Positions 3,779 through 34,997 of a DNA stretch of 62,372 nt are shown here, piece after piece. The DNA lies in contig NZ_KB899429.1 of NCBI RefSeq assembly GCF_000378205.1, forward strand, positions 1-62,372. The letters are read 5' to 3'. The notes below the pieces were generated by a model that had not been told where the DNA came from, made no database searches, and saw nothing but the letters and a program-made list of their open reading frames with translations. This DNA is from Sediminispirochaeta bajacaliforniensis DSM 16054 (GTDB lineage Bacteria; Spirochaetota; Spirochaetia; DSM-16054; Sediminispirochaetaceae). Each line of letters opens with the position of its first letter. Position 1 is the stretch's first letter. A program made the translations under genes and the position numbers.

Positions 3779-5644
3779 TTAGAACAAGCCGATATCGGAG
3801 CGAACATGCATCCCCCTAAAAGAGACCCTTTGCACCAGATCGTAGGCAGCCGTTCGCGCCGCGGCGGCATCCTCTCCCCAGGCAGTCAGGGAGAGGACCC
3901 TCCCCCCTGCCGTAACAAGCGATCCGTCAGGCTTACGCTCTGCACCGGAGACAAAGGAGACCGAATGGTCGGAGGCTGGGGGCAGCGGGGAAATAAGATC
4001 TCCACGTTCGGCAGACTCCGGATACCCTTCGGCAACGGCAACGACGGTACAGGCGTGCAGCCGCTCCTTTCCCCGGTCAGCAGCAAGGGAAGCAGGAAGA
4101 TTTCCCCTGGCACAGTCGAAAAGCAGCCGGGCAAAATCCGAGGGCAGCAGGGGCATCAGAGATTGGGTCTCAGGATCACCAAAGCGGACATTGTACTCCA
4201 ATAGCTTGGGTCCCTTTGAGGTAAGCATCACCCCGAAAAAGAGCACCCCACGAAAAAGGATGGCATCCTCGTGCAATCCCCGGAGGGTCGGAAGCAGAAT
4301 GGCTTTGGTAAAGGCCTCTTCGATGTCGGATGAAAGGCCCGGGGCCGGGGCAACACTCCCCATGCCGCCGGTGTTAAGCCCCCGATCACCGTCGAGGGCC
4401 CGCTTATGATCCCGGGCAGAGGGCAAAAGGAGGTAATCGATACCATCGGTAAGGGCAAAAAAGGAAACCTCAGGGCCGGTAAGAAGCTCTTCGATCACCA
4501 CGGTCCGCCCGGCACCACTGAAACCGCCTCCGAAACAGGTATCAAGGGCCTTTTCCACCTCCTCACGGGATGAGCAAAGCAAAACCCCCTTTCCGGCGGC
4601 AAGACCGTCCGCCTTTACCGCAACCTTCCAATCCAGAGATGCGGCATAACCGAGAGCCTTCTCCTGCTCACCTGCCAGGAAAACCTGATAATCGGCGGTT
4701 GCCACCCCGTGGCGGACCATGAAATCCTTGGCAAAGGCCTTGCTGCCCTCAAGTCGGGCACCTTCGATATTAGGCCCAAAGACGGCAAAACCCGCCTTAC
4801 GAAGCCGCATTCCAAGCCCCTCGACCAGGGGTACCTCCGGTCCCACGACCACAAGGTTCACCTCCCGACCGCGAAGCAGGTCGATAAGGGCGTCTTCATC
4901 CTCAGGCATGGGAAGATTGTCGCAGCCCTCCAGCAGGGCGGTGCCTCCGTTCCCCGGCAGCGCCGCGAGGGAGCAGATATCCTCATCCTGCAACAACTTC
5001 CAGCAGAGGGCGTGTTCCCGTCCACCCTTGCCGATCACGGCCGCACGAATTTTCGCAGCAGAGGGATGCTCTTCTCCGGCAAAAAAAGCATTGATGGTTT
5101 CCAAAAGCAGGGGCTTCTCCTCTTCTCCCACCCGGGAAGCAAGAGCTTCGGGGCTATCGCCGGAAAAAACAGGGACCCTGCGTCGTGCCAGAACCCTCCC
5201 GCTATCGATCCCGTCATCTACCAGATGAACCGAACAGCCGCTGCAACGGCATCCCGATTCGATGACCGCCCGATGCACATGCATACCGTGCATTCCCATA
5301 CCACCGAAATCGGGCAAAAGCGACGGATGAATATTGATGATCCTCCCGCGAAAGGCCTTAAGCAATGGATCGGTCAGGATCGACAGAAAACCGGCACAGA
5401 CGATGAGGTCGACCTTCCCGTCAAGGCTCTCGGCGATCTTTCGGCTCAGCACCGAGGAGCCCTCCTTTCGATCCAGAAGCAAAAGAGGGATCGAGGCTTT
5501 CTCGGCTATGGAGGCCGCCCCGGTAGACGGACGGTCCACGACAACCATGGAAATCTCAGCCTTGAGTGCGCCGGAGGCCGCTCCTTCGACGAGATAGGCA
5601 AGGGTACTCCCTCGTCCGGAGGCAAGAACCGCTATCGAAGCCAT
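3779..5644 (-). CDS. purND: PurN-PurD fusion: GAR formyltransferase + GAR synthetase
   Basis: A 621-residue fusion of two purine enzymes. Residues 1-192 are PurN (glycinamide ribonucleotide formyltransferase): GRGSTL near 10, catalytic Asn104 and His106 in INIHPSLLP, and Asp144 in VDDGIDSG. Residues 198-621 are PurD (GAR synthetase, ATP-grasp): GKGGREHAL near 206, GPEVPL, the ATP-binding KADGLAAGKGV, and NVRFGDPETQ. The join is short (EEHPSAAKIR). PurD makes GAR from phosphoribosylamine and glycine, and PurN formylates it, so the fusion joins consecutive steps. The start ATG overlaps the purM end by 13 bp. This is the last purine gene of the operon. Confidence 0.93.
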   Translation of the reverse strand: MASIAVLASGRGSTLAYLVEGAASGALKAEISMVVVDRPSTGAASIAEKASIPLLLLDRKEGSSVLSRKIAESLDGKVDLIVCAGFLSILTDPLLKAFRGRIINIHPSLLPDFGGMGMHGMHVHRAVIESGCRCSGCSVHLVDDGIDSGRVLARRRVPVFSGDSPEALASRVGEEEKPLLLETINAFFAGEEHPSAAKIRAAVIGKGGREHALCWKLLQDEDICSLAALPGNGGTALLEGCDNLPMPEDEDALIDLLRGREVNLVVVGPEVPLVEGLGMRLRKAGFAVFGPNIEGARLEGSKAFAKDFMVRHGVATADYQVFLAGEQEKALGYAASLDWKVAVKADGLAAGKGVLLCSSREEVEKALDTCFGGGFSGAGRTVVIEELLTGPEVSFFALTDGIDYLLLPSARDHKRALDGDRGLNTGGMGSVAPAPGLSSDIEEAFTKAILLPTLRGLHEDAILFRGVLFFGVMLTSKGPKLLEYNVRFGDPETQSLMPLLPSDFARLLFDCARGNLPASLAADRGKERLHACTVVAVAEGYPESAERGDLISPLPPASDHSVSFVSGAERKPDGSLVTAGGRVLSLTAWGEDAAAARTAAYDLVQRVSFRGMHVRSDIGLF

Positions 5645-6675
5645 AAACGTTCCCCCCCTTTATCGGAATCGGGGACGGCCACGACCCTGCCAATGGGATA
5701 GGCATCGATACCAGAGGCCTCGATACGGCTGCAGATACCATCAGCATCCCCAGGAGAGACGACAAGCACCATGCCGACCCCCATATTAAAGGTACGAAAC
5801 ATCTCCTCATCGCCTATGCCGAGGGAGGCCAGGTAAGCAAACACATCAGGGGTCCTGATCAGGCCGCGATCGACCTCCGCAGCCAATCCCGCAGGGATGG
5901 TCCTGGGAAGATTTTCGAAAAGCCCTCCGCCGGTGATATGGGCAACACCGTGGAGGAGCGAATCCTCGATAAGAGGACGAAGCGCCTTAACGTAGATCCT
6001 CGTCGGCTCTAAAAGCAGCTCTCCCAGACTCTTTCCGCCGATTTCCCTCCGGTAGCCGTCCTTCTTTTCATCGGCGGTGGCCATGCGGATGAGGGAAAAG
6101 CCATTGGAGTGGGGTCCGCTGGAAGCAAGGGCGATCAAGGTATCGCCAGCCCGGACTCTGGAACCGTCGATAAGTTCTTTGCGCTCCACCACACCGACGG
6201 AGAAGCCGGCAACATCGAAGTCGCCGACGCGGTAAAGCCCTGGCATCTCGGCGGTCTCCCCGCCCACAAGGGCGCATCCCGCCTGAATACAGCCGCGGGA
6301 AACACCTTCCACAACCCTGGCCATGGTTTCGGCCTCAAGCTTTCCGGTGGCAAGGTAGTCGAGGAAGAAAAGGGGCCTGGCACCGTGACAGAGGATGTCG
6401 TTGACGCACATGGCCACACAATCGATACCGACCCCTTCGAGACGATCGAGAAGGATCGCCAGTTCCAACTTTGTCCCTACCCCGTCGGTCCCCGACACGA
6501 GAACAGGTTCTTTGTAGGAGGCGGGCATGGCAAAAAGGCTGCCGAAGCTTCCCAGGCCGGCGAGAACCCCGTCACCATCCTGTCTGGTTCGATCGCAACT
6601 CTCCCTGATCAGGGAAACGGTTCGGTAGCCCTCTTCCCTGTCGACCCCGGCCTTGCGATAATCGATTTCTTTCAT
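5632..6675 (-). CDS. purM: Phosphoribosylformylglycinamidine cyclo-ligase (AIR synthetase)
   Basis: A 347-residue enzyme that closes the imidazole ring, turning FGAM into AIR with ATP. Recognised by DYRKAGVD near the N-terminus, VSGTDGVGTKL, CVNDILCHGARPLFFLDY, ALVGGETAEMPGLY, ASSGPHSNGFSLIR and HITGGGLFENLPR, in the usual order. The start at 6675 (MKEIDYRKAGVD) has a ggag about 6 bases upstream; the longer in-frame extension runs back into purF. It begins 11 bp after the purF stop and overlaps the start of purND. Confidence 0.95.
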   Translation of the reverse strand: MKEIDYRKAGVDREEGYRTVSLIRESCDRTRQDGDGVLAGLGSFGSLFAMPASYKEPVLVSGTDGVGTKLELAILLDRLEGVGIDCVAMCVNDILCHGARPLFFLDYLATGKLEAETMARVVEGVSRGCIQAGCALVGGETAEMPGLYRVGDFDVAGFSVGVVERKELIDGSRVRAGDTLIALASSGPHSNGFSLIRMATADEKKDGYRREIGGKSLGELLLEPTRIYVKALRPLIEDSLLHGVAHITGGGLFENLPRTIPAGLAAEVDRGLIRTPDVFAYLASLGIGDEEMFRTFNMGVGMVLVVSPGDADGICSRIEASGIDAYPIGRVVAVPDSDKGGERLWLR

Positions 6676-6686
6676 ATTTTTCTCCA

Positions 6687-8132
6687 CTAATCCTCCCGAC
6701 CGGGCTTCGGGGCTCCCATCGGATAGACGCCGGTAAAGCAACCGGTACAAAACCCCATTGTACCCGAGAGGGCCTGGACAAGCCCTTCAACCGAGAGAAA
6801 GGCCAAAGAATCGGCACCGACCCGTCTGGCAAGCTCCTCGATATCGTATTTATTGCTAACCAGATCCTCCCGGTAGGGTGTATCAATGCCGAAGTAGCAG
6901 GGAAAGGCCACGGGCGGGGCGGCAATTCTGATATGCACTTCGGTCGCGCCCGCCCCTTTCAGCTTCGAAACAAGGGAGCGCATGGTTGTTCCCCGGACGA
7001 TGGAATCGTCGATAAGGACAATACGCATTCCTTTGACAGCCTCTTTCAGGGCGTTGTGTTTCAAGGCGACCCGTCGCTCCCTGTCGTCCTGACTCGGAGC
7101 GATAAAGGAGCGTCCCACATAGCGATTCTTTACCAGGGACATGCCGTAGGGAATGCCTGAAGCCTCGCTGAAACCGGCGGCCGCCGGGATCCCGGAATCG
7201 GGGACACCGGTGACAAGATCGGCCTTTACCGGGGCTTCCTTAAAAAGTTGGCGACCGGAACGTACCCTGGCACCGTAGACGCCGATGCCGTCGATAACCG
7301 AATCCGGCCGGGCAAAGTAGATGTATTCGAAGCTGCAGGTCCGCGTCTCGGTTTTTTCTTCCTGATTGCTGCCGGCAATACCTTCACCATCGGCCACAAT
7401 GATTTCTCCCGGTTCAACATCCCGCAGAAATTTTGCTCCTATGGCATCGAGAGCACAGGTTTCAGAGGAAACCACCCAATACTCCTCAAGTTCTCCCACA
7501 CAGAGGGGGCGAATTCCGTTTTTATCCCGCGCCGCAATCAATTTGCCGTCGGCAAGCACCGCCAAGGCATAGGAGCCCTGGACCGTTCGGACCGCATCCC
7601 TGACAGCCTCGAGGGCGCTCTTTTTTGCAAGACTCCTGGCAATCAGGTTGAGCATCACCTCCGAATCACTTTGCGTGCGAAAAACACTCCCGCCTTCCTC
7701 AAGAAGTTCCCGAAGAAGCTGAGAATTTACCAAATTCCCGTTATGTGCCAGGGCAACCGCCCCTTTTTTCGTGTGAGCAACCAGAGGTTGAGCATTTTCG
7801 ACCCCGCTTCCCCCGGTTGTGGAATACCGAACATGGCCGAGAGCGACGGTCGAACCCTCTCTGTCGAGTTTCAGGACCTCTCCCGAATCGATCAAAGAGG
7901 CGACAAGCCCTGCAGACTTTGCCACCTCGATTCGAGCAGGATCCTCAAATCCACCCAGAATAATCCCCGAGCTTTCCTGACCACGATGCTGGAGAGCCGT
8001 AAGGCCTCCCAGCACCACATGCACGGGATCGACGGAAGGAGCGAAATCTTTTTTTGCGCAGACGGCGAATACCCCGCATTCTTCGTGCAGCTTATCATCC
8101 GCAGCTTCCGCCGAAGCAAAAAGACTATTCAC
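6687..8132 (-). CDS. purF: Amidophosphoribosyltransferase
   Basis: A 481-residue enzyme for the first committed purine step, PRPP + glutamine to phosphoribosylamine. The mature N-terminal nucleophile is Cys19 in HEECGVFAV, preceded by an 18-residue propeptide as in the Bacillus-type enzymes. Glutaminase residues ([17 protein letters not shown]) and the PRPP-binding loop ([14 protein letters not shown]) are present. The C-terminal [12 protein letters not shown] fits the class with a structural [4Fe-4S] cluster. The start is taken as GTG at 8132 because ggag lies 7 bases upstream and this gives a normal propeptide; it overlaps the purC end by 8 bp. Confidence 0.93.
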
Positions 8133-8838
8133 CAGCGTTCTCCATGCGGGAAAGAACCTCATGATAGGCATCTTCCACAGAACCAAGATCTCGTCGGAAG
8201 CGATCCTTGTCAAGCTTCTTTCCGGTGGCGGCGTCCCAGAAGCGACAGGTATCGGGACTGATCTCATCGGCGAGCAACAGCTTACCATCACTGGTTTTGC
8301 CGAACTCCAGCTTAAAATCGATCAGGGTAATACCGATCTTCAGGAAAAAGGCGCTCAGCACCTCGTTTACCTTTGCGGCCATGTTGTAGATCGCCTTCAG
8401 CTCGTCAAAAGTGGTCAGGCCGATGGCAACGGCATGGTGATCATTAATAAGAGGATCCCCAAGGTCGTCGTTTTTATAGCTGATTTCGAAAACCGTGGTC
8501 TTGAGTTCGGTTCCCTCCTTAAGGCCCAGTCGCTTTGCCATGCTTCCCGCCGCCTTGTTACGGACAATCACCTCAACCGGTACGATCTCTACCTTACGGC
8601 AGAGCTGCTCCCGGGGACTGATCTTTTCGATAAAGTGGTTTTCAACACCATTTTTCGCAAGCAGGGTAAAAAGGAGCGTGGTGATGGCATTATTCATCTC
8701 TCCCTTTCCGGTGATCGTTCCCTTTTTCTCTCCATTGAATGCGGTTGCATCGTCCTTATATTCTACCAGTACAACCTCGGCATCATCGGTGGCGTACAAC
8801 TTTTTGGCTTTTCCCTCATACAGCAGTTTTCCTTTCAT
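8125..8838 (-). CDS. purC: SAICAR synthetase
   Basis: A 237-residue phosphoribosylaminoimidazole-succinocarboxamide synthase, which joins aspartate to CAIR with ATP. Recognised by [15 protein letters not shown] at the N-terminus, [14 protein letters not shown], the [12 protein letters not shown] segment and [14 protein letters not shown] near the C-terminus. Length is normal for the short bacterial form. The start codon overlaps the purE stop (ATGA), indicating translational coupling. Confidence 0.95.
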
Positions 8839-9320
8839 TTCAAAACCTCCCCATGATATTGTGTAAGCAGTTTTTCTTTTTTTTCAGATCGATAGCCTGC
8901 CAGCGCCTTTCGCACCTTGGCATCGGAAGATCCGATGATGGCGGCGGCAAGGAGTGCACCATTCGTTCCGTTGTCGATTCCCACGGTGGCTACAGGAATC
9001 CCCGGAGGCATCTGCAGCATCGACATGACTGCATCCATCCCCTCCATGGCCGCTGTTTTAGCTTTCAACGGAACACCAACCACGGGGATCAGGGTTTTTG
9101 CCGCAATGACACCCGGCAGGTGAGCCGACAGGCCCGCGGCGGCTATGATTACCTGACATCCCCTTTTTTCAAGGCCGGCAATATAGGAGTCCAGGGCCTC
9201 AGGAGTCCGATGTGCCGAAAGGACCCTGGACTCCCATTCGATGCCGAGGCTATCAAGGAGCTGCGCACAGCCCTCAAGCTGGGGAAGATCGGAACCGCTT
9301 CCCATGATGATTGCAACCAT
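8835..9320 (-). CDS. purE: AIR carboxylase / N5-CAIR mutase
   Basis: A 161-residue PurE. Signature segments are [14 protein letters not shown] at the N-terminus, [25 protein letters not shown] and [13 protein letters not shown]. The start at 9320 ([11 protein letters not shown]) is chosen because ggagg lies 5 bases before that ATG; the ATG at 9332 would place the Shine-Dalgarno inside the gene. No purK is adjacent, although the rest of the cluster is compact. Treponema denticola PurE is known as a class II AIR carboxylase that uses CO2 directly, so this enzyme may be of that class; this is inference. Confidence 0.93.
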
Positions 9321-9343
9321 TCCATCCTCCATACAAAAAAATC

Positions 9344-12300
9344 TTAGAGAAAATAGTCGATTCCGGCACGAAAGATGGGCTGCCATCCGGCACCGGGGAT
9401 ATTTTTTGCAACATATCTTCCGCTTCGCTCGCAGTGGCCCATCTTTCCGAGGACCCGTCCATCGGGACTCAAAATGCCTTCGATACCTCGCATTGAAGCG
9501 TTGGGATTATCGGGATAGTCCAAAGCAACATGGCCCTCATTATCGCAGTAGCGGAAGGCAACCTGCCGATTCTGTTCGAGTTCGTCGAGCAGAGCATCGG
9601 ATGCTACGAAACGCCCCTCCCCATGGGAGACCGGAACCACCTGCAGATCGCCCGGAGACATGAGTCTCATCCAGGGGCCGAGGTCGGATTCACAGCGGGT
9701 ACCACAGTAGCGTGAAACGTGTCTGCCTATCTGATTGGGGGCAAGAACGGGATCCCTCTCTCTTCTTGCCGTCACCCTGCCGTAGGGTAAAAGTCCGGAG
9801 CGGACCAGGGCCTGAAAGCCGTTACAGATGCCGAGCATCAGGCCGTCGCGGTGATAGAGAAGCTCTTCAAGGGCCCCTGCGATGCGAGGATTACCGAGAA
9901 CCGCCGCAATATACTTTGCTGCCCCGTCAGGCTCATCTCCTGCACTAAATCCCCCGGGAATGACCACGATTTTTGCCTTGGCAATCGCCTTTTCCATCGA
10001 TTCCAAAGATGAGGGAGGACCTCCAGCACAGCGAGTTCGGAAAAGGAAGTGAGAAACCTCTCCACCCTCCCGCCGGAAGGCGGCTGCGGTCTCTTCTTCG
10101 CAGTTTGTCCCGGGAAACGAGAGAACAAGGACCTCTGGCCCCCGTCTGGTAAGGAGCCTCGGCGCAGGGTATGCCCCGGAAGAAGGAACGGCAGGAAGGC
10201 CGGCGGAACTCCCCCGACTTCCGCCGGGACCGGGATAGAGCTCGGCCTTTCTGCTGCGCCATGCCGCCAGGGCCCGATCCATGGAAATATTCATCCCGCC
10301 GATCCTGAAATTTTGTTTCTCGGTGGTAGATCCAATGGCAATAAGGAACGACTCGCCATCCTCAGGCAAAACCGCTCCACCATTCCATTCAATGAGAAAT
10401 GAACCGTAGGCGGGATCAAAGGAATCCAATCCTTTCGGAAGATCGCCGTCAAAGCCGATTCCGTTTCCGAATCCCATCTCTGCCACGGCCTGAGCCACAC
10501 CGCCGAAACCAACCGATCGACATGCCAGCACATTTCCATCCTGCATCAACTGCTCAAGGAAGGCTGCCTGCCTGAGAAAGAGAGAAAAATTCGGTTCTCC
10601 GTTTTCGAGACGGGAGTGATGGATGAGAAAAACCTTTGAGTCGATCTTCTTGAATTCGGGGCTCTGTACCGATGCGGCGGAAACGGGGGCCACGGCAAAG
10701 GCGGCCAGGGTCGGCGGGACCTTCAACGCCATCCAGCTCCCGGACATGCTGTCCTTTCCTCCAATAGCCGGGATTTCCAAAGCAAGCTGAGCTCGCAAAG
10801 CGCCTAAAAGAGCCGATGCAGGTGCTCCCCACCCTTGGGCATCCTCCCCGGGAGGGGGAAAATATTCCTGAAGGGAGAGCCGAATCGATCCTAAAGCGGC
10901 GCCGGTGGCAAGTCCGCGGCACACAGCCTCAAGGATGGCATAGATGGCTCCGTGATAGGGGCTCCAAAGGCCGATCTCCGGGGCGTAACCGCAACTCATT
11001 ATCGAGGCGGTAGACACGTCCTCCCGTTTCGATGGGATGAGGGCTGCCATTGCCTCGGCCGGGGTCAGCTGATACTTGCCACCCAGGGGAGAAAGCACCG
11101 ACCGGGCCCCTACCGAAGAGTCGAACTGCTCGGTAAGGCCTTCTGAACCGGCGACATTATCCTCGGAGAGGAGAAGAGCCCAGCGTCGATCCTCCTGCAC
11201 CGCATTCCTGCGACGAAGAATTTCATCGAAGAAGGAGGTTTCAGAGGGAGCCGGAACCCTGGCCTCCGCCCGGGAATCGCCTCCGGCCGCATCAAGCAAC
11301 TGCCTCGGCAGCTGTGCAACAATGCCGTCACGAGAGGCGATCGTAAGCAGCGGCTCTTCGGTAACCTCGGCAATAATCGAGGCGATAAGATCCTCTTCGG
11401 CAGCGAGGGCGATGAAGGTGTCCGCATCGCCGGCGGCCACGACAACCGCCATGCGCTCCTGACTTTCCGAGAGGGTTATTTCCAAGGGAGAAAGATCGCG
11501 ATATTTCAGGGGGACGGCCGAAAGATTAATAGAGAGCCCGGGGGCAAGTTCTCCGACAGCCACGGCCACACCACCGGCACCGAAATCATTACACCGTTTT
11601 ATGAGAGCTGCGGTTTCCCTCTTTCGAAAGAAGCGCTGAAGAGCACGCTCTTCCGGGGGATTCCCCTTCTGGACCTCGGCTGCGCTACGATGGATGGATT
11701 CCGCATCGTGGGCCCGGGAAGAGCCGGTGGCCCCTCCAATGCCGTCCCGTCCTGTAGCACCGCCGACAAGGATCACCACGTCTCCGGCAACGGGTCGCTC
11801 CCTCCTGATCGACGAAAGGGGCACGGCGCCGACCACGGCGCCTGCCTCGAAACGCTTAGCACGAAAGCCCTCGGCATATAGCTCCCTGACGAGTCCGGTG
11901 GGGATTCCGATCTGATTGCCGTAGCTGCTGTAACCGTGTGCCGATTCCCTGGCAAGGGTCGTCCTTGAAAGTTTTGAGCTGCGAAGCAGTTCGTCTTCCA
12001 ACTCTTCCACATTGGGATCGGGAAAGGCCGCACCGGAAAGGCGCATGGCCTGGTGGACATAGGACCTGCCGGAAAGCGGGTCCCTGATAGCTCCGCCGAT
12101 ACAGGTCGCCGCCCCCCCGAAGGGCTCGATCTCCGTGGGATGGTTGTGGGTCTCGTTCTTGAACATCAAAAGCCAGGGTTCACCCGTCGCGGCCTTTTCC
12201 TCCCCGCCTTCGTGGCTGACCGCTATTCTGATGGAAGCGGCGTTAATCTCCTCCGAAATATCGAGATCGGGGATCTTCCCCTCAGCAGAGAGGATTTTCA

Positions 12301-13066
12301 CCCCGGCGGTCGCCATGTTCATGAGGGAAAGCTCATCTCCGAAACGATCGTGATAGGAATGAAGCGTCTCTTCAAGCCCAGAAAGGTAGTGACTTTTCGC
12401 CACCGACACATGGGTAAGGGGTGTATTGAAGGTGGTATGACGGCAGTGATCACTCCAGTAGGTTGCAAGTATGGCAAGTTCGGTCAGCGTAGGGTCGCGA
12501 TCAAGTTTATCTCGGAAATAATTTCGGCAAAATCGCAATTCGGATGGAGCCATGACGATACCATGCCGCTTGCCAAGCTCTTCAAGAGCGGCATCGGAGA
12601 GTAAGCGAAAACCTCGCAGCAACCCCTCTTCTCCGTCGAGATCGATCTCATAAGAATCCACAGGATTCACCAAATTTTTCCGGATACTCTGCCGATCTTT
12701 TTCGCTTAGTTCTCCATAAAAGAGACAGCAGGAAATGCTGCGAACAGCTTCGACAGCGCCGCCTTGAAGTTCGACGGCTTCCTTCGCAGACGCACCTCGC
12801 TGATCGAACTGTGCGGGAAGCAGGCCCCAGGCAAAGCTCCAGCATGCAGCATCGTCAAAAGGGGGATCAGTCAACGGCCCGAGGTCAGTAACAGGATCAC
12901 GAAGGGCACGCGCGACGACTTCGACGGAAAGATCTCCACTTATCCGGTATCCAGAGAACAGCCGTATTCTCGAGAGCCCGTCGATTCCAAGGCGCTGGTG
13001 AAAATCCTGTAGTAATTCATCAGAAGAAGTCCGAAAGGACTCCCGCTTTTCAAAAAAGATGAACAT
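9344..13066 (-). CDS. purL: FGAM synthetase, large single-chain type
   Basis: A 1240-residue formylglycinamidine ribonucleotide synthetase that converts FGAR, glutamine and ATP to FGAM. It is the large one-chain form (as in enterobacteria), not the PurS/Q/L complex. Visible parts: an N-terminal PurS-like region, the catalytic core (YWSDHCRHTTFNT, KNETHNHPTEIEPFGGAATC, GGATGRDGIGGATGSS, FGAGGVAVAVGELA) and a C-terminal glutaminase with the Cys nucleophile in GICNGFQALV. The start at 13066 (MFIFFEKRESF) has ggaggggg just upstream. It is the first gene of the operon, behind an attenuator-like leader. Confidence 0.94.
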   Translation of the reverse strand: MFIFFEKRESFRTSSDELLQDFHQRLGIDGLSRIRLFSGYRISGDLSVEVVARALRDPVTDLGPLTDPPFDDAACWSFAWGLLPAQFDQRGASAKEAVELQGGAVEAVRSISCCLFYGELSEKDRQSIRKNLVNPVDSYEIDLDGEEGLLRGFRLLSDAALEELGKRHGIVMAPSELRFCRNYFRDKLDRDPTLTELAILATYWSDHCRHTTFNTPLTHVSVAKSHYLSGLEETLHSYHDRFGDELSLMNMATAGVKILSAEGKIPDLDISEEINAASIRIAVSHEGGEEKAATGEPWLLMFKNETHNHPTEIEPFGGAATCIGGAIRDPLSGRSYVHQAMRLSGAAFPDPNVEELEDELLRSSKLSRTTLARESAHGYSSYGNQIGIPTGLVRELYAEGFRAKRFEAGAVVGAVPLSSIRRERPVAGDVVILVGGATGRDGIGGATGSSRAHDAESIHRSAAEVQKGNPPEERALQRFFRKRETAALIKRCNDFGAGGVAVAVGELAPGLSINLSAVPLKYRDLSPLEITLSESQERMAVVVAAGDADTFIALAAEEDLIASIIAEVTEEPLLTIASRDGIVAQLPRQLLDAAGGDSRAEARVPAPSETSFFDEILRRRNAVQEDRRWALLLSEDNVAGSEGLTEQFDSSVGARSVLSPLGGKYQLTPAEAMAALIPSKREDVSTASIMSCGYAPEIGLWSPYHGAIYAILEAVCRGLATGAALGSIRLSLQEYFPPPGEDAQGWGAPASALLGALRAQLALEIPAIGGKDSMSGSWMALKVPPTLAAFAVAPVSAASVQSPEFKKIDSKVFLIHHSRLENGEPNFSLFLRQAAFLEQLMQDGNVLACRSVGFGGVAQAVAEMGFGNGIGFDGDLPKGLDSFDPAYGSFLIEWNGGAVLPEDGESFLIAIGSTTEKQNFRIGGMNISMDRALAAWRSRKAELYPGPGGSRGSSAGLPAVPSSGAYPAPRLLTRRGPEVLVLSFPGTNCEEETAAAFRREGGEVSHFLFRTRCAGGPPSSLESMEKAIAKAKIVVIPGGFSAGDEPDGAAKYIAAVLGNPRIAGALEELLYHRDGLMLGICNGFQALVRSGLLPYGRVTARRERDPVLAPNQIGRHVSRYCGTRCESDLGPWMRLMSPGDLQVVPVSHGEGRFVASDALLDELEQNRQVAFRYCDNEGHVALDYPDNPNASMRGIEGILSPDGRVLGKMGHCERSGRYVAKNIPGAGWQPIFRAGIDYFL

Positions 13067-13090
13067 CGCCCCCTCCAAAGGAATGAAAAC

Positions 13091-13145
13091 AAAAAAACCC
13101 CGAACCGGCATGATTCCGCAACAGGGCGGATCGCCGACTCGGGGT
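13091..13145 (-). terminator. Leader terminator (attenuator) 25 bp before purL
   Basis: On the minus strand a stem of 12-13 bp (ccccgagtcggc with gccggttcgggg, including two G-U pairs) encloses 23 bases that contain a small ccgc/gcgg hairpin. Seven U follow directly. The U run ends 25 bases before the purL ATG and lies inside the transcribed leader, so this is an attenuator rather than the end of an upstream gene; the upstream gene ends at 13346. A GGGG at 13162-13165 could pair with the CCCC at 13141-13144 that forms the foot of the terminator, giving a possible competing fold. Confidence 0.75.
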
Positions 13146-13265
13146 GGCAGGCCGGAAAAGGCCCCTATCATCCCAGGGCCCAAGAGCCCCTTTATCTCGT
13201 AACGATTGTATCGGATAATGGCATTCCATGTCCGGGTTGTACCCGAGACAAAGAAAAGAGTCAAC

Positions 13266-13297
13266 ATTATCTACAACGAATTCTAATACTTTTTCAA
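13266..13297 (-). promoter_or_regulatory. Candidate promoter of the purine operon
   Basis: The minus strand reads ttgaaa (13297-13292), an 18-base spacer, then tagata within tagataat (13273-13266). Transcription would start near 13260, giving a leader of about 195 bases containing the terminator at 13091-13145. A 19-bp repeat (13294-13312) overlaps the -35 element. A second possible -35 (ttgact) lies just downstream, so the exact start is uncertain. Confidence 0.45.
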
Positions 13298-13312
13298 TTT
13301 TGTTGCATAACA
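13294..13312. repeat. Direct repeat, copy 1, overlapping the pur promoter -35
   Basis: The sequence is tcaattttgttgcataaca. It matches 18 of 19 bases with the copy at 13346-13364 in the same orientation. The two copies are 52 bp apart, about five helical turns. It overlaps the candidate -35 box of the purine operon, as an operator would. Confidence 0.6.
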
Positions 13313-13345
13313 CCAAAAAACCTACGTAAAAACGGTTTCATTGAT

Positions 13346-13364
13346 TCAATATTGTTGCATAACA
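13346..13364. repeat. Direct repeat, copy 2, at the 3' end of the methyltransferase gene
   Basis: The sequence is tcaatattgttgcataaca. It differs from the first copy by one base. It includes the last codons and the stop of the methyltransferase gene, so it is partly coding. Being on the same helical face as copy 1 makes a cooperative protein-binding site plausible. Confidence 0.55.
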
Positions 13365-24827: not shown

Positions 24828-25916
24828 GTGAGGGACAATCAGGACAGACTATTACAGATTCCGCTGGGAACCGAAAGTTTTTATCTCGAGGAAGCATATC
24901 GCCACCGAGAGATTACCTATAAACTCCATCGGCTTTTTGCTTCCTGGGGATATCTACCTGCAGAAACTCCGGTGTTTGACTTTTTTGATACCTACCGGCA
25001 TCTCCTGAACGAAAACAAGAAACATATCTACCGCCTCATCGATAGAGAGGGCGACCTGCTGATGCTTCGGTCCGACATCACCCTTTTCCTGGCTAAACAG
25101 ATGGGATTGCTGTTGCGACAAGAGGATCTCCCGGCCAGGATTTGTTACAGCGACACCATTCTTCGGCACCAGAACAGGGAAGATATCAGCAGAAATGAGT
25201 TTTTCCAGGTCGGGGCCGAGCTGATCGGAAAAGAAAAGATAGAAGGTGATCTGGAAATTCTGCTCCTGCTGTTGGCAACTTTCGATTCCCTGCATGTGAA
25301 GCCCCTTATCCATATCGGGAGCAGGCGCCTCGTAGATGCTATTTTTACAGATCTCTGTTCGGCAGAACGGGAATCGGCAATTGCGGATGTTCGCAACCGC
25401 AATAGAGCAGACACGGCCGAGCTTTTGAAGAAGTTGTACGGAAAAGAAGCGGGTTCGGCCATTGCCGCGATGCTTCGCTTTATTGGAACACCGGAGGAGC
25501 TTAAAAGCGTAAAATCTCGTTTTACTGCTCATCTTAACGATGCGGCAAGGCAAGCAATGGAAGAGATGGAGGCAATGTTCACGATTCTGGAACGACTTAA
25601 CAAGGTGGAACAACTGCGCATCGATTTCTCCGAGGTTGGAGAGCAGCCATATTACACGGGCATTGTGTTTCAAGCCTATATTGATACTCTGGACGACGCA
25701 ATCGCTTCGGGAGGGCGTTATGATAAGCTGTTGGAGAGCTTCGGCTTTAATGCACCTTCCGCCGGCTTTTCCATCATGTTGAGAAAAATAGAGCCGCTGC
25801 TTGGAGATGACTTTCTCCCCCCCCGTCCGGTCACATCGGACCACTATGGAAGCTTTGAAGAGGCCTTTAAAGCAGCGGAAAAGCGGAGAGCAGCAGGCGA
25901 ATGCATGACACTATAG
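24828..25916 (+). CDS. hisZ: ATP phosphoribosyltransferase regulatory subunit
   Basis: A 362-residue HisRS-like protein without tRNA ligase function; it partners the short HisG to form active ATP phosphoribosyltransferase, the first histidine step. It has class II synthetase-like segments: PAETPVFDFFDTY, MLRSDITLFLAKQ, ICYSDTILRHQNR.. and SGGRYDKLLESFG near residue 300. Its length and missing anticodon domain separate it from HisRS. The start is GTG with gggaggag just before it. It is followed 9 bp later by a short hisG, as expected. Confidence 0.9.
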   Translation: MRDNQDRLLQIPLGTESFYLEEAYRHREITYKLHRLFASWGYLPAETPVFDFFDTYRHLLNENKKHIYRLIDREGDLLMLRSDITLFLAKQMGLLLRQEDLPARICYSDTILRHQNREDISRNEFFQVGAELIGKEKIEGDLEILLLLLATFDSLHVKPLIHIGSRRLVDAIFTDLCSAERESAIADVRNRNRADTAELLKKLYGKEAGSAIAAMLRFIGTPEELKSVKSRFTAHLNDAARQAMEEMEAMFTILERLNKVEQLRIDFSEVGEQPYYTGIVFQAYIDTLDDAIASGGRYDKLLESFGFNAPSAGFSIMLRKIEPLLGDDFLPPRPVTSDHYGSFEEAFKAAEKRRAAGECMTL

Positions 25917-25925
25917 GAGAAAGCG

Positions 25926-26567
25926 ATGAATGAGAAATCACAGGAAGCCCCTTTGAGCCTTGCTTTGCCAAAGGGACGGCTGCTGGATGAAATACAAGAG
26001 CGATTTGCAGAAAGGGGAATGGCCTTTTCCTTTGAAAAACGAAAACTTGTGGCCCGCGACGAAAGCGGAACGCTTGAGATCTTTCTGGTAAAAAACAGCG
26101 ATCTTCCCACATATGTGAACCATGGTATCGCAGGTCTCGGCATCTGCGGTTCCGATGTTCTGTATGAATCCGAATATCGTTTTTTTCGCCTCAAGACCTT
26201 TGATTTCGGCGGTACATCGATGTGCATTGCAGGCAGGCGGGACGAGCCCTTTTCACTGGATAAGCGAGGAGTCGCCGTTGCAACCAAATTTATCAATTTT
26301 ACAAGGGATTACTTTCATCAAAGGGGGATTCCCGTTCAGATTATCAAGCTAAACGGTTCGGTGGAGCTTGCTCCGGTTTTAGGCTTGGCACCCTACATTG
26401 TCGATCTTGTTGAAACGGGAAACACGCTCAAGGCCAACCATCTTGAAGTGAAGAAGAAGCTGGAGGATATTCATGTTCACCTGATTGCGAACCCCTCCTA
26501 CTATAAGCTCCACCACCGAAAAATCGATCATTTCATACAGATGATTGAGGAGGACAACCATGAGTGA
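25926..26567 (+). CDS. hisG: ATP phosphoribosyltransferase, short form
   Basis: A 213-residue catalytic subunit that joins ATP and PRPP. The short form lacks the C-terminal regulatory ACT-like domain and needs HisZ, which is encoded just upstream. Recognised by LALPKGRLLDE at the N-terminus, the VNHGIAGLGICGSDVLYE segment, VATKFINFTRDYF, and LAPYIVDLVETGNTLKANHLE (the PRPP-binding Glu-Thr-Gly-x-Thr loop). Its end overlaps the hisB start by 8 bp. Confidence 0.93.
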   Translation: MNEKSQEAPLSLALPKGRLLDEIQERFAERGMAFSFEKRKLVARDESGTLEIFLVKNSDLPTYVNHGIAGLGICGSDVLYESEYRFFRLKTFDFGGTSMCIAGRRDEPFSLDKRGVAVATKFINFTRDYFHQRGIPVQIIKLNGSVELAPVLGLAPYIVDLVETGNTLKANHLEVKKKLEDIHVHLIANPSYYKLHHRKIDHFIQMIEEDNHE

Positions 26568-27150
26568 AACCATTCGCATCGAAAGAAATACAAAGGAAAC
26601 CGAAATCTGTGTCAGTTTCGAGGGGCCGGAATCTCTACCGGGAACAATTTCAACGGAAGTTCCCTTCTTCGACCACCTCCTTACCTCTATGGCGTTCCAT
26701 GGGGAACTGGGCTTTACGATTTCCGCCCGGGGTGATATCGAAGTGGATCCGCATCATCTTGTCGAAGATACAGGGCTCGTACTGGGGGATGCCGTCAGAA
26801 GCTATGTTCTGAAGAAGAATGCGATCGAACGCTTCGGACATGCGGTTATCCCCATGGATGATGCATTGGTTGAGGTAACCATTGATGCGGGAGGGCGTCC
26901 CTACTTTTATATGAATGCCCTTTTCCCCCAAAGCATGTGTGGAAATTTCGACACTGCGCTTCTGAAAGAATTCTTCCGTGCCTTTGCCGTTCGCGGAGGT
27001 TTAAACCTCCATATAGATGCACGCTACGGCGAAAATAGTCATCATATTGCAGAAGCTGCCTTTAAGGCCCTGGGAAAAGCACTGGGAAACGCCCTAAAAA
27101 AGAAGGCAAAAGGTATAACCCCCTCGACGAAAGGAACGATTAGCGTTTGA
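26560..27150 (+). CDS. hisB: Imidazoleglycerol-phosphate dehydratase
   Basis: A 196-residue Mn-dependent dehydratase for the histidine pathway, monofunctional (no phosphatase domain). The metal ligands are in the conserved FFDHLLTSMAFHG, DPHHLVEDTGLVLG and GENSHHIAEAAFKA segments. The ATG at 26560 has gaggagg about 7 bases upstream. No other his gene follows; the remaining pathway genes must be elsewhere. Confidence 0.95.
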   Translation: MSETIRIERNTKETEICVSFEGPESLPGTISTEVPFFDHLLTSMAFHGELGFTISARGDIEVDPHHLVEDTGLVLGDAVRSYVLKKNAIERFGHAVIPMDDALVEVTIDAGGRPYFYMNALFPQSMCGNFDTALLKEFFRAFAVRGGLNLHIDARYGENSHHIAEAAFKALGKALGNALKKKAKGITPSTKGTISV

Positions 27151-27165
27151 TAGGGGCTTAAGACC

Positions 27166-27194
27166 TTGCTTTTCTTCTATTTTTTCCCTATAGT
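27166..27194 (+). promoter_or_regulatory. Candidate sigma-70 promoter for the TPR operon
   Basis: ttgctt (27166-27171), a 17-base spacer and tatagt (27189-27194). Transcription would start near 27201, about 27 bases before the ATG at 27228. It lies 15 bp after the hisB stop. Confidence 0.5.
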
Positions 27195-27227
27195 TACAAG
27201 AAAACTTGGCCTTATGGTTAGTGTGGA

Positions 27228-27563
27228 ATGAAAAAAGAGGAGTTATCAAAGTTGCTCCCCCGGGAAGGATTCCTCAAGATCGGAAAAACCGGGAACAGGC
27301 CCTTATCGTCATCCGATCGAGCCGCACTCATCAGGAAGGGAAACGAACAATACAATTCCGGGAACGTTGAACTTGCGAAAAGAATTTTCATCACTACTGG
27401 ATATTCAGATGGTTTGATCAGGGTCGGTGACCGGTGCATAGAAAATGGGGATCCTTTGGAGGCCCTAAGACTCTACTGGCTCGCATCTGCACCAGGAAAG
27501 GTTGATGCATTGCTTGAACAAACCGCATCTGTTATTAGACGGTGGTTGAGCGAAGGGGAATGA
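27228..27563 (+). CDS. Small unknown protein upstream of a TPR protein
   Basis: A 111-residue basic, helical protein without signal peptide or membrane segment. The middle (IRKGNEQYNSGNVELAKRIFITTGYSDGLIRVGDRC) and the following ENGDPLEALRLYWLASAPGK resemble two degenerate TPR-like helical hairpins. The stop overlaps the start of the TPR gene (ATGA), so the two are translationally coupled. The function is unknown. Confidence 0.65.
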   Translation: MKKEELSKLLPREGFLKIGKTGNRPLSSSDRAALIRKGNEQYNSGNVELAKRIFITTGYSDGLIRVGDRCIENGDPLEALRLYWLASAPGKVDALLEQTASVIRRWLSEGE

Positions 27564-28714
27564 TAGATATGATGGATATGAATGAACCAGACGAAAGAGA
27601 TTTTTCCGATGCCTCGGGTCAATTTGAAGAATCTGTTCTCAATGAAATTTCTGAGCTCTCGAAAAGAGGCTATCAGCTGCTGAAAGAAAATCTCACAGGA
27701 GAGGCGGAGCGTTGCTTCGAAAAAATCCTGCAGCATGATGAGTTTAATAATTATGCACTTGTAGGGATGGGGGATGCTTCCCGTAAACGGGGACATTTCA
27801 GAGATGCCATCACCTACTATCAACGCTGTCTTCAACATCACGACGGTAATAATTATGCACTCTTCGGGCTTGCAGACTGTTATAAGGCCCTGAATAAATA
27901 TGATGATGCAATTAAGATATGGGAGCGGTATCTTCAACACGACGAGAAAAACGTCACCGTCCTTACCAGAGTTGCGGATGCCTATCGAAAGGTGAAGGAC
28001 TTTCGCCATTCGAAAGAGGTATATCTCCAGGTCCTGGAAATCGAACCTGACAACCCATATGCGCTCATCGGCCTGGGGCATCTCCACTATGATTTCAGAG
28101 AATACGAGCAGGCCCTTCAGTATTGGGAGAGAATGCTGCAAGTCAAGAAAGAAAGCGTCGATATCAGGGTTCTCACCAGCTTGGGAAACTGTCACAGAAA
28201 GCTGAAAACCTACTCACAAGGGCTTGAATACTTCCATAAGGCATTGGAACTGGAACCGCAAAATTTCTACGCCCTCTTCGGGATGGCGGATTGTTATCGG
28301 GGAATGGATCATCATGCCGATTCTCTTGAGTATTGGCATCGAATTCTCAAGCTCGATCCTCACAACAAGGTAATACTCACCCGAGCCGGCGATGCCTACC
28401 GCTGCATGGGAGACTACGATAATGCCGAGGAATATTACCGCAAGGCTCTCAACATCGAATTTGACGTTTATGCTATTCTTGGTTTGGCACTTATCAACAA
28501 AGCACGGGGCAATTACGAGGAGGCCATCGAAAGCCTTTACGGGCTTTTGAAAGATGACCCCAAAAACCACCGTCTGTACACCGAGGTAGCGGAGTGTTAC
28601 CTTGCCCTGGGACAAAAGTATAAGGCCCTCGAGGTTTTAGGGGATTTTCAGCGTCTTGGTATCCGCAACAGCTACGTTTCGTCTCTCGTTGAAAAGATTC
28701 GTCAAGGCGGATGA
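27560..28714 (+). CDS. TPR protein with eight to nine repeats
   Basis: A 384-residue protein made almost entirely of 34-residue tetratricopeptide repeats from about residue 35. Several repeats carry a recurring start (NNYALVGMGDA, NNYALFGLADCY, NPYALIGLGHL, NFYALFGMADCY), suggesting recent internal duplication. No signal peptide, so probably cytoplasmic. TPR arrays bind other proteins; no partner is evident. The start at 27560 overlaps the previous stop and has aagggg before it. The stop overlaps the rlmN start (ATGA), so three genes are coupled. Confidence 0.85.
   Translation: MIDMMDMNEPDERDFSDASGQFEESVLNEISELSKRGYQLLKENLTGEAERCFEKILQHDEFNNYALVGMGDASRKRGHFRDAITYYQRCLQHHDGNNYALFGLADCYKALNKYDDAIKIWERYLQHDEKNVTVLTRVADAYRKVKDFRHSKEVYLQVLEIEPDNPYALIGLGHLHYDFREYEQALQYWERMLQVKKESVDIRVLTSLGNCHRKLKTYSQGLEYFHKALELEPQNFYALFGMADCYRGMDHHADSLEYWHRILKLDPHNKVILTRAGDAYRCMGDYDNAEEYYRKALNIEFDVYAILGLALINKARGNYEEAIESLYGLLKDDPKNHRLYTEVAECYLALGQKYKALEVLGDFQRLGIRNSYVSSLVEKIRQGG

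Positions 28715-34924: not shown

Positions 34925-34997
<73 letters not shown>

Follow-up and report, generated by a model that had tools for sequence, protein, structure and literature searches.

In tandem PRPP–guanine aptamers upstream of purine genes, a single terminator stem serves both aptamers (PMC7266159). The LoaP-controlled dfn and mln operons are also long biosynthetic operons preceded by a terminator in the leader, and their leaders carry a UNCG-tetraloop hairpin (PMC12691694). PRPP (ykkC subtype 2b) and ZTP (pfl) riboswitches are likewise sensors of the purine pathway, and generic attenuators bring together a promoter, a leader, an intrinsic terminator, a Shine–Dalgarno sequence and a biosynthetic operon. 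Within the Spirochaetia, the RF00167 purine riboswitch lies before purL in three sampled relatives (G025, G028 and G048, at loci L012, L010 and L011, respectively; 67–76 bits). Because relatives carry this riboswitch at the equivalent place, purL is usually under leader control in the class. In several other relatives, inspection by eye placed the promoter next to the purL start codon, with no leader. One further genome (G045) has an RF00167 riboswitch just downstream of purL (L003 1390–1491, minus strand), apparently before purE. A second RF00167 search recovered all four riboswitches.

We analysed a 62,372-nucleotide stretch of the Sediminispirochaeta bajacaliforniensis DSM 16054 genome (the window), in which purL is the first gene of a complete purine operon (Table 1). 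On the minus strand, the end of a methyltransferase gene (13346) is followed by a promoter-like site, a leader, a hairpin with a T7 run, a short spacer with a GGAGG motif, and purL. The original prediction, made from the letters of the sequence, had described a purine operon leader, and the placement of the terminator between the predicted promoter and purL, with the operon behind it, bears this out. Gene, place and pathway are those of the purine riboswitches in relatives, but the leader has no match to that family even at E = 10. The leader is probably a cis-acting, lineage-specific transcription attenuator of the purL-E-C-F-M-N/D operon that is off by default, a reading that we hold with some reserve. 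At the distal end of the operon, a single open reading frame (3779–5644, minus strand) joins PurN (formyltransferase) to PurD (GAR synthetase), and both parts exceed their NCBIfam cut-offs.

Table 1 Features of the purL leader and the purine operon, in window positions
Feature	Position	Strand	Basis and remarks
Predicted purL-operon promoter	13236..13264	(-)	TTGACT 13264-13259, 17-nt spacer, TACAAC 13241-13236; read from sequence
Upstream leader RNA, possible sensor or antiterminator region	13145..13231	(-)	Identical in genus-mate (G001); without Rfam match
G-rich segment, two mutually exclusive hairpins	13159..13190	(-)	Predicted folds
Intrinsic terminator	13091..13144	(-)	Hairpin 13144-13098 and U7 13097-13091; fold energy against shuffles
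Terminator–purL spacer	13067..13090	(-)	Shine–Dalgarno GGAGG 13076-13072; promoter would not fit; read from sequence
purL, single-chain FGAM synthase, first operon gene	9347..13066	(-)	TIGR01857, 1284 bits, cut-off 1057
purE, purC, purF, purM, purN-purD fusion	3779..9329	(-)	Pfam and NCBIfam, open reading frames

The terminator, described in the original prediction, held up. The hairpin (CCCCGAGTCGGCGATCCGCCCTGTTGCGGAATCATGCCGGTTCGGGG; arms CCCCGAGTCGGC and GCCGGTTCGGGG) has 19 pairs in total, 12 of them basal and two of these G–U, and its U-run ends 24 nt from the purL ATG. Its folding energy of −29.0 kcal/mol compares with a mean of −17.1 (s.d. 2.8) for shuffled sequences, none of which (0/500) was equally stable. 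When both strands of the 62-kb window were scanned for a hairpin followed by a T-run, counting sites at −14 kcal/mol or better, the purL terminator was the top-ranking site; outside open reading frames only one other was found, 3′ of the tRNA at 34925–34997. A simpler terminator scan did not list the purL hairpin, probably because its loop limit and single-stem definition exclude a structure of this kind.

From the sequence we infer a promoter for the operon near 13264–13236, with 9 of 12 consensus matches and 100% conservation in the genus-mate. A promoter scan that requires T at the last −10 position omitted this TTGACT-17-TACAAC site and returned a weaker one (CGGACA-18-TACAAT, 13234–13205). 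With transcription expected to start near 13231–13229, the leader RNA probably measures about 165 nt, shorter than the roughly 195 bases first proposed. Since the best promoter lies upstream and the 24 nt downstream are too short for another, all purL-E-C-F-M-N/D transcripts must cross the terminator. A strong terminator thus stands, unavoidably, between a predicted promoter and the first gene. That it is unavoidable from any upstream start is the strongest argument for attenuation, and we infer that termination at the purL leader is regulated. The case for attenuation in general is good.

However, small RNAs show the same order of promoter and strong terminator. The terminator could be a fixed, unregulated filter, or could end a small RNA of about 140 nt, with purL mRNA arising from incidental read-through. 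We think this unlikely: such an arrangement would be costly where the operon encodes essential biosynthesis, and the sequence identity described below runs through the spacer to codon 6 of purL, past any small RNA, although the chance-level antiterminator pairing (also below) would suit it.

Conservation was assessed against one other Sediminispirochaeta genome (G001); two members of the same family (G002 and G003) were left out because the purL N-terminus is missing from their assemblies. Positions 13050–13275, 226 bp that span from just beyond the −35 element into purL, are 100% identical between the two genomes, against background identities of 94.7% for the whole window and 93.2% on average for intergenic sequence. 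The next-longest identical intergenic run is 100 bp, and the chance of 209 identical intergenic bases is about 4e-7 if sites are treated as independent at 93.2%. The extent of the run matches what a constrained regulatory unit would show, and selection on the leader is likely, as judged from this comparison. It is likely rather than proven because the identity of the leader could stem from recent exchange, as a near-identical his region may show. The his region (25212–27741, about 2.5 kb, with a HisZ-like gene, hisG and hisB) differs hardly at all from its counterpart in the genus-mate, through either recent exchange or unusual constraint. Across the collections searched, the leader is known from two identical sequences only.

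Searches for relatives of the leader RNA found it in this genus alone. Rfam gave nothing relevant on the leader up to E = 10, and on the window as a whole it identified the tRNA alone; two lines naming NsiR1 and anti-hemB were low-scoring matches to the terminator hairpin and were set aside. Up to E = 10 the leader also lacked RF00167, and none was detected in the window's genome or the genus-mate under stricter filters. The ZTP and PRPP/ykkC riboswitch models likewise gave no leader match at E up to 10; in Rfam the PRPP/ykkC and ZTP riboswitches fall under RF00442 and RF01750. The initial failure to recognize a guanine, PRPP or ZTP aptamer by eye was therefore upheld by covariance search, and the suggestion of a divergent ZTP or PRPP RNA was not supported. 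By blastn against 395 genomes of the class, the leader had only short matches outside the genus. Only the two genus members were matched by a covariance model (R1) run on 98 relatives and 393 genomes of the phylum, or by a second (R2) run on 95 loci, mostly purL loci of Firmicutes. A scan of genome contigs also returned mostly Firmicutes purL, and 10 of these loci were without any Rfam match. Neither blastn nor the covariance model found a second copy of the leader in the genome, and no paper on this purL leader was found in the literature collection searched.

These results bear on whether the upstream leader (13231–13145) is an aptamer of a new riboswitch class that binds a purine-pathway metabolite and controls the terminator, which would be a sub-case of the attenuator. 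Gene context and terminator architecture fit, the whole leader is identical in the genus-mate and matches no known family, and relatives have a purine riboswitch at the equivalent place where none was found in the window's genome. Against this, the upstream fold is average, neither unusually stable nor complex and no better than that of shuffled sequence, and the searches found no homologue outside one genus and no second genomic copy. The case for a new riboswitch consists of gene context and two identical copies, and we doubt that the leader is one. Slightly more doubtful still is the narrower proposal of a very rare class, limited to Sediminispirochaeta, that would sense a purine-pathway metabolite from the position held by the purine riboswitch in relatives.

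High sequence conservation without unusual folding would also suit a protein that reads sequence. Bound to the RNA of the leader or to the DNA of the promoter, such a protein could set the level of read-through, with the RNA serving only as its landing site; this too would be a sub-case of the attenuator. The region holds candidate sites. An inverted repeat (CGGGT-ACA-ACCCG, 13232–13247, minus strand) overlaps the −10 element of the purL promoter and is a possible operator. Two direct repeats of TATGCAACAAWATTGAA (13345–13361 and 13293–13309, minus strand), 52 bp apart, lie upstream of the promoter and are possibly regulator sites; one of them overlaps the end of the methyltransferase gene. 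In three relatives (L007–L009), an apparent LysR-type gene, identified by eye, is divergent from purL. Yet the inverted and direct repeats coincide only at the purL locus, and the genome has no further convincing copies: in each of the two genus genomes the 20-bp stretch around the inverted repeat is found a single time when up to 3 mismatches are allowed, and no further TATGCAACAAWATTGAA copy with fewer than 2 mismatches was found in them. Nor does a candidate regulator gene adjoin the purine operon here. We regard control by a protein as rather unlikely.

LoaP, a NusG paralogue that acts in processive antitermination, was a serious candidate because the window's genome encodes a homologue (NF033641, 125.2 bits, cut-off 125). 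Like LoaP-controlled leaders, the purL leader places a terminator ahead of a long operon for biosynthesis. The LoaP-type gene (L157 1501–2055, plus strand) lies on another contig, directly 5′ of a sugar-nucleotide epimerase gene. No UNCG in the purL leader is closed by a stem longer than 1 bp, in contrast to LoaP-controlled leaders. On account of this neighbourhood and the missing hairpin, we rejected LoaP at purL, where its action is highly improbable. The genus-mate also has a second NusG-family gene.

Generic attenuators, with which the purL locus shares its promoter, leader, terminator, Shine–Dalgarno sequence and biosynthetic operon, use alternative folding. In the original prediction, a switch was to arise from pairing between GGGG (13165–13162) and CCCC at the foot of the terminator (13144–13141). 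Both runs exist; the partner favoured by the energy model is a different one. While the RNA is nascent, CCC at the foot (13143–13141) is predicted to pair with GGG (13174–13172) with a probability of 0.82, beside a GGGCC/GGCCU helix, and GGGGCU/GGCCCU is predicted to form upstream while the foot is paired. The GGGG run, for its part, is predicted to join the neighbouring helix or a competing hairpin and not to pair directly with the foot. The antiterminator state is predicted to be preferred when only the 5′ foot has been transcribed; completion of the 3′ arm is predicted to shift the preference to the terminator state, which is then better by about 6 kcal/mol (−55.5 versus −49.6). The gain from foot pairing, however, is −5.0 kcal/mol against a mean of −5.6 for shuffled leaders, 54% of which do as well; pairings of this kind arise easily in a leader with many G-runs and C-runs. 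The GGGG/CCCC pairing is thus not supported as evidence for a switch. As alternative pairing is not above chance and the upstream fold is average among shuffled leaders, we present the antiterminator as a hypothesis and not as a result.

The G-rich segment also contains a canonical G-quadruplex motif (GGGG-N5-GGG-N4-GGG-N6-GGGG, 13190–13162, minus strand), one of two in the window. It is present in 2.4% of shuffled leaders, but a shuffled window is expected to contain 2.6 of these motifs and the energy model prefers a hairpin, so we kept it as a lead only.

Translation of the leader itself would offer another route to read-through. A leaderless open reading frame of 59 codons starting at 13229, its AUG coinciding with the predicted transcription start or lying 2 nt from it, remains open across the terminator as far as 13050 in purL, and ribosomes translating it could open the terminator. 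The frame is unexceptional, as 21% of shuffled leaders keep it open equally long; it has no ribosome-binding site, and two identical copies give no codon-level signal. Leader-peptide control is accordingly quite improbable.

For the attenuator, the likeliest mechanism would be a switch inside the leader. Transcription would start near 13230 and yield a leader of about 140 nt, which by default would fold the terminator hairpin and halt at U7, so that only read-through transcripts would reach purL. When the signal is low, 13190–13175 would pair (GGGGCU/GGCCCU), leaving GGG 13174–13172 and GGGCC 13164–13160 free to engage the 5′ foot and the adjacent GGCC in an antiterminator. With a sufficient purine supply, the competing hairpin GGGCCCU/GGGGCCU (13181–13159) would release the foot, and transcription would stop. 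The purine-related signal might be read by the RNA or by a bound protein. Antiterminator, polarity and signal are our guesses. The occurrence of the leader in two genomes only, the lack of a detected second copy, foot pairing and upstream folding at shuffle level, and recent exchange as a possible source of the identity count against the attenuator as well.

Control of the same operon seems to differ within one class of spirochaetes: by a purine riboswitch in some members, without a leader in others, some of which have a divergent LysR-type-like gene, and by an orphan attenuator in Sediminispirochaeta. If the purL leader senses a metabolite, it would represent a purine-related sensor of a kind that no described family covers. 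If it is instead controlled by a protein, the regulation of an ancient pathway would appear to be easily swapped between lineages.
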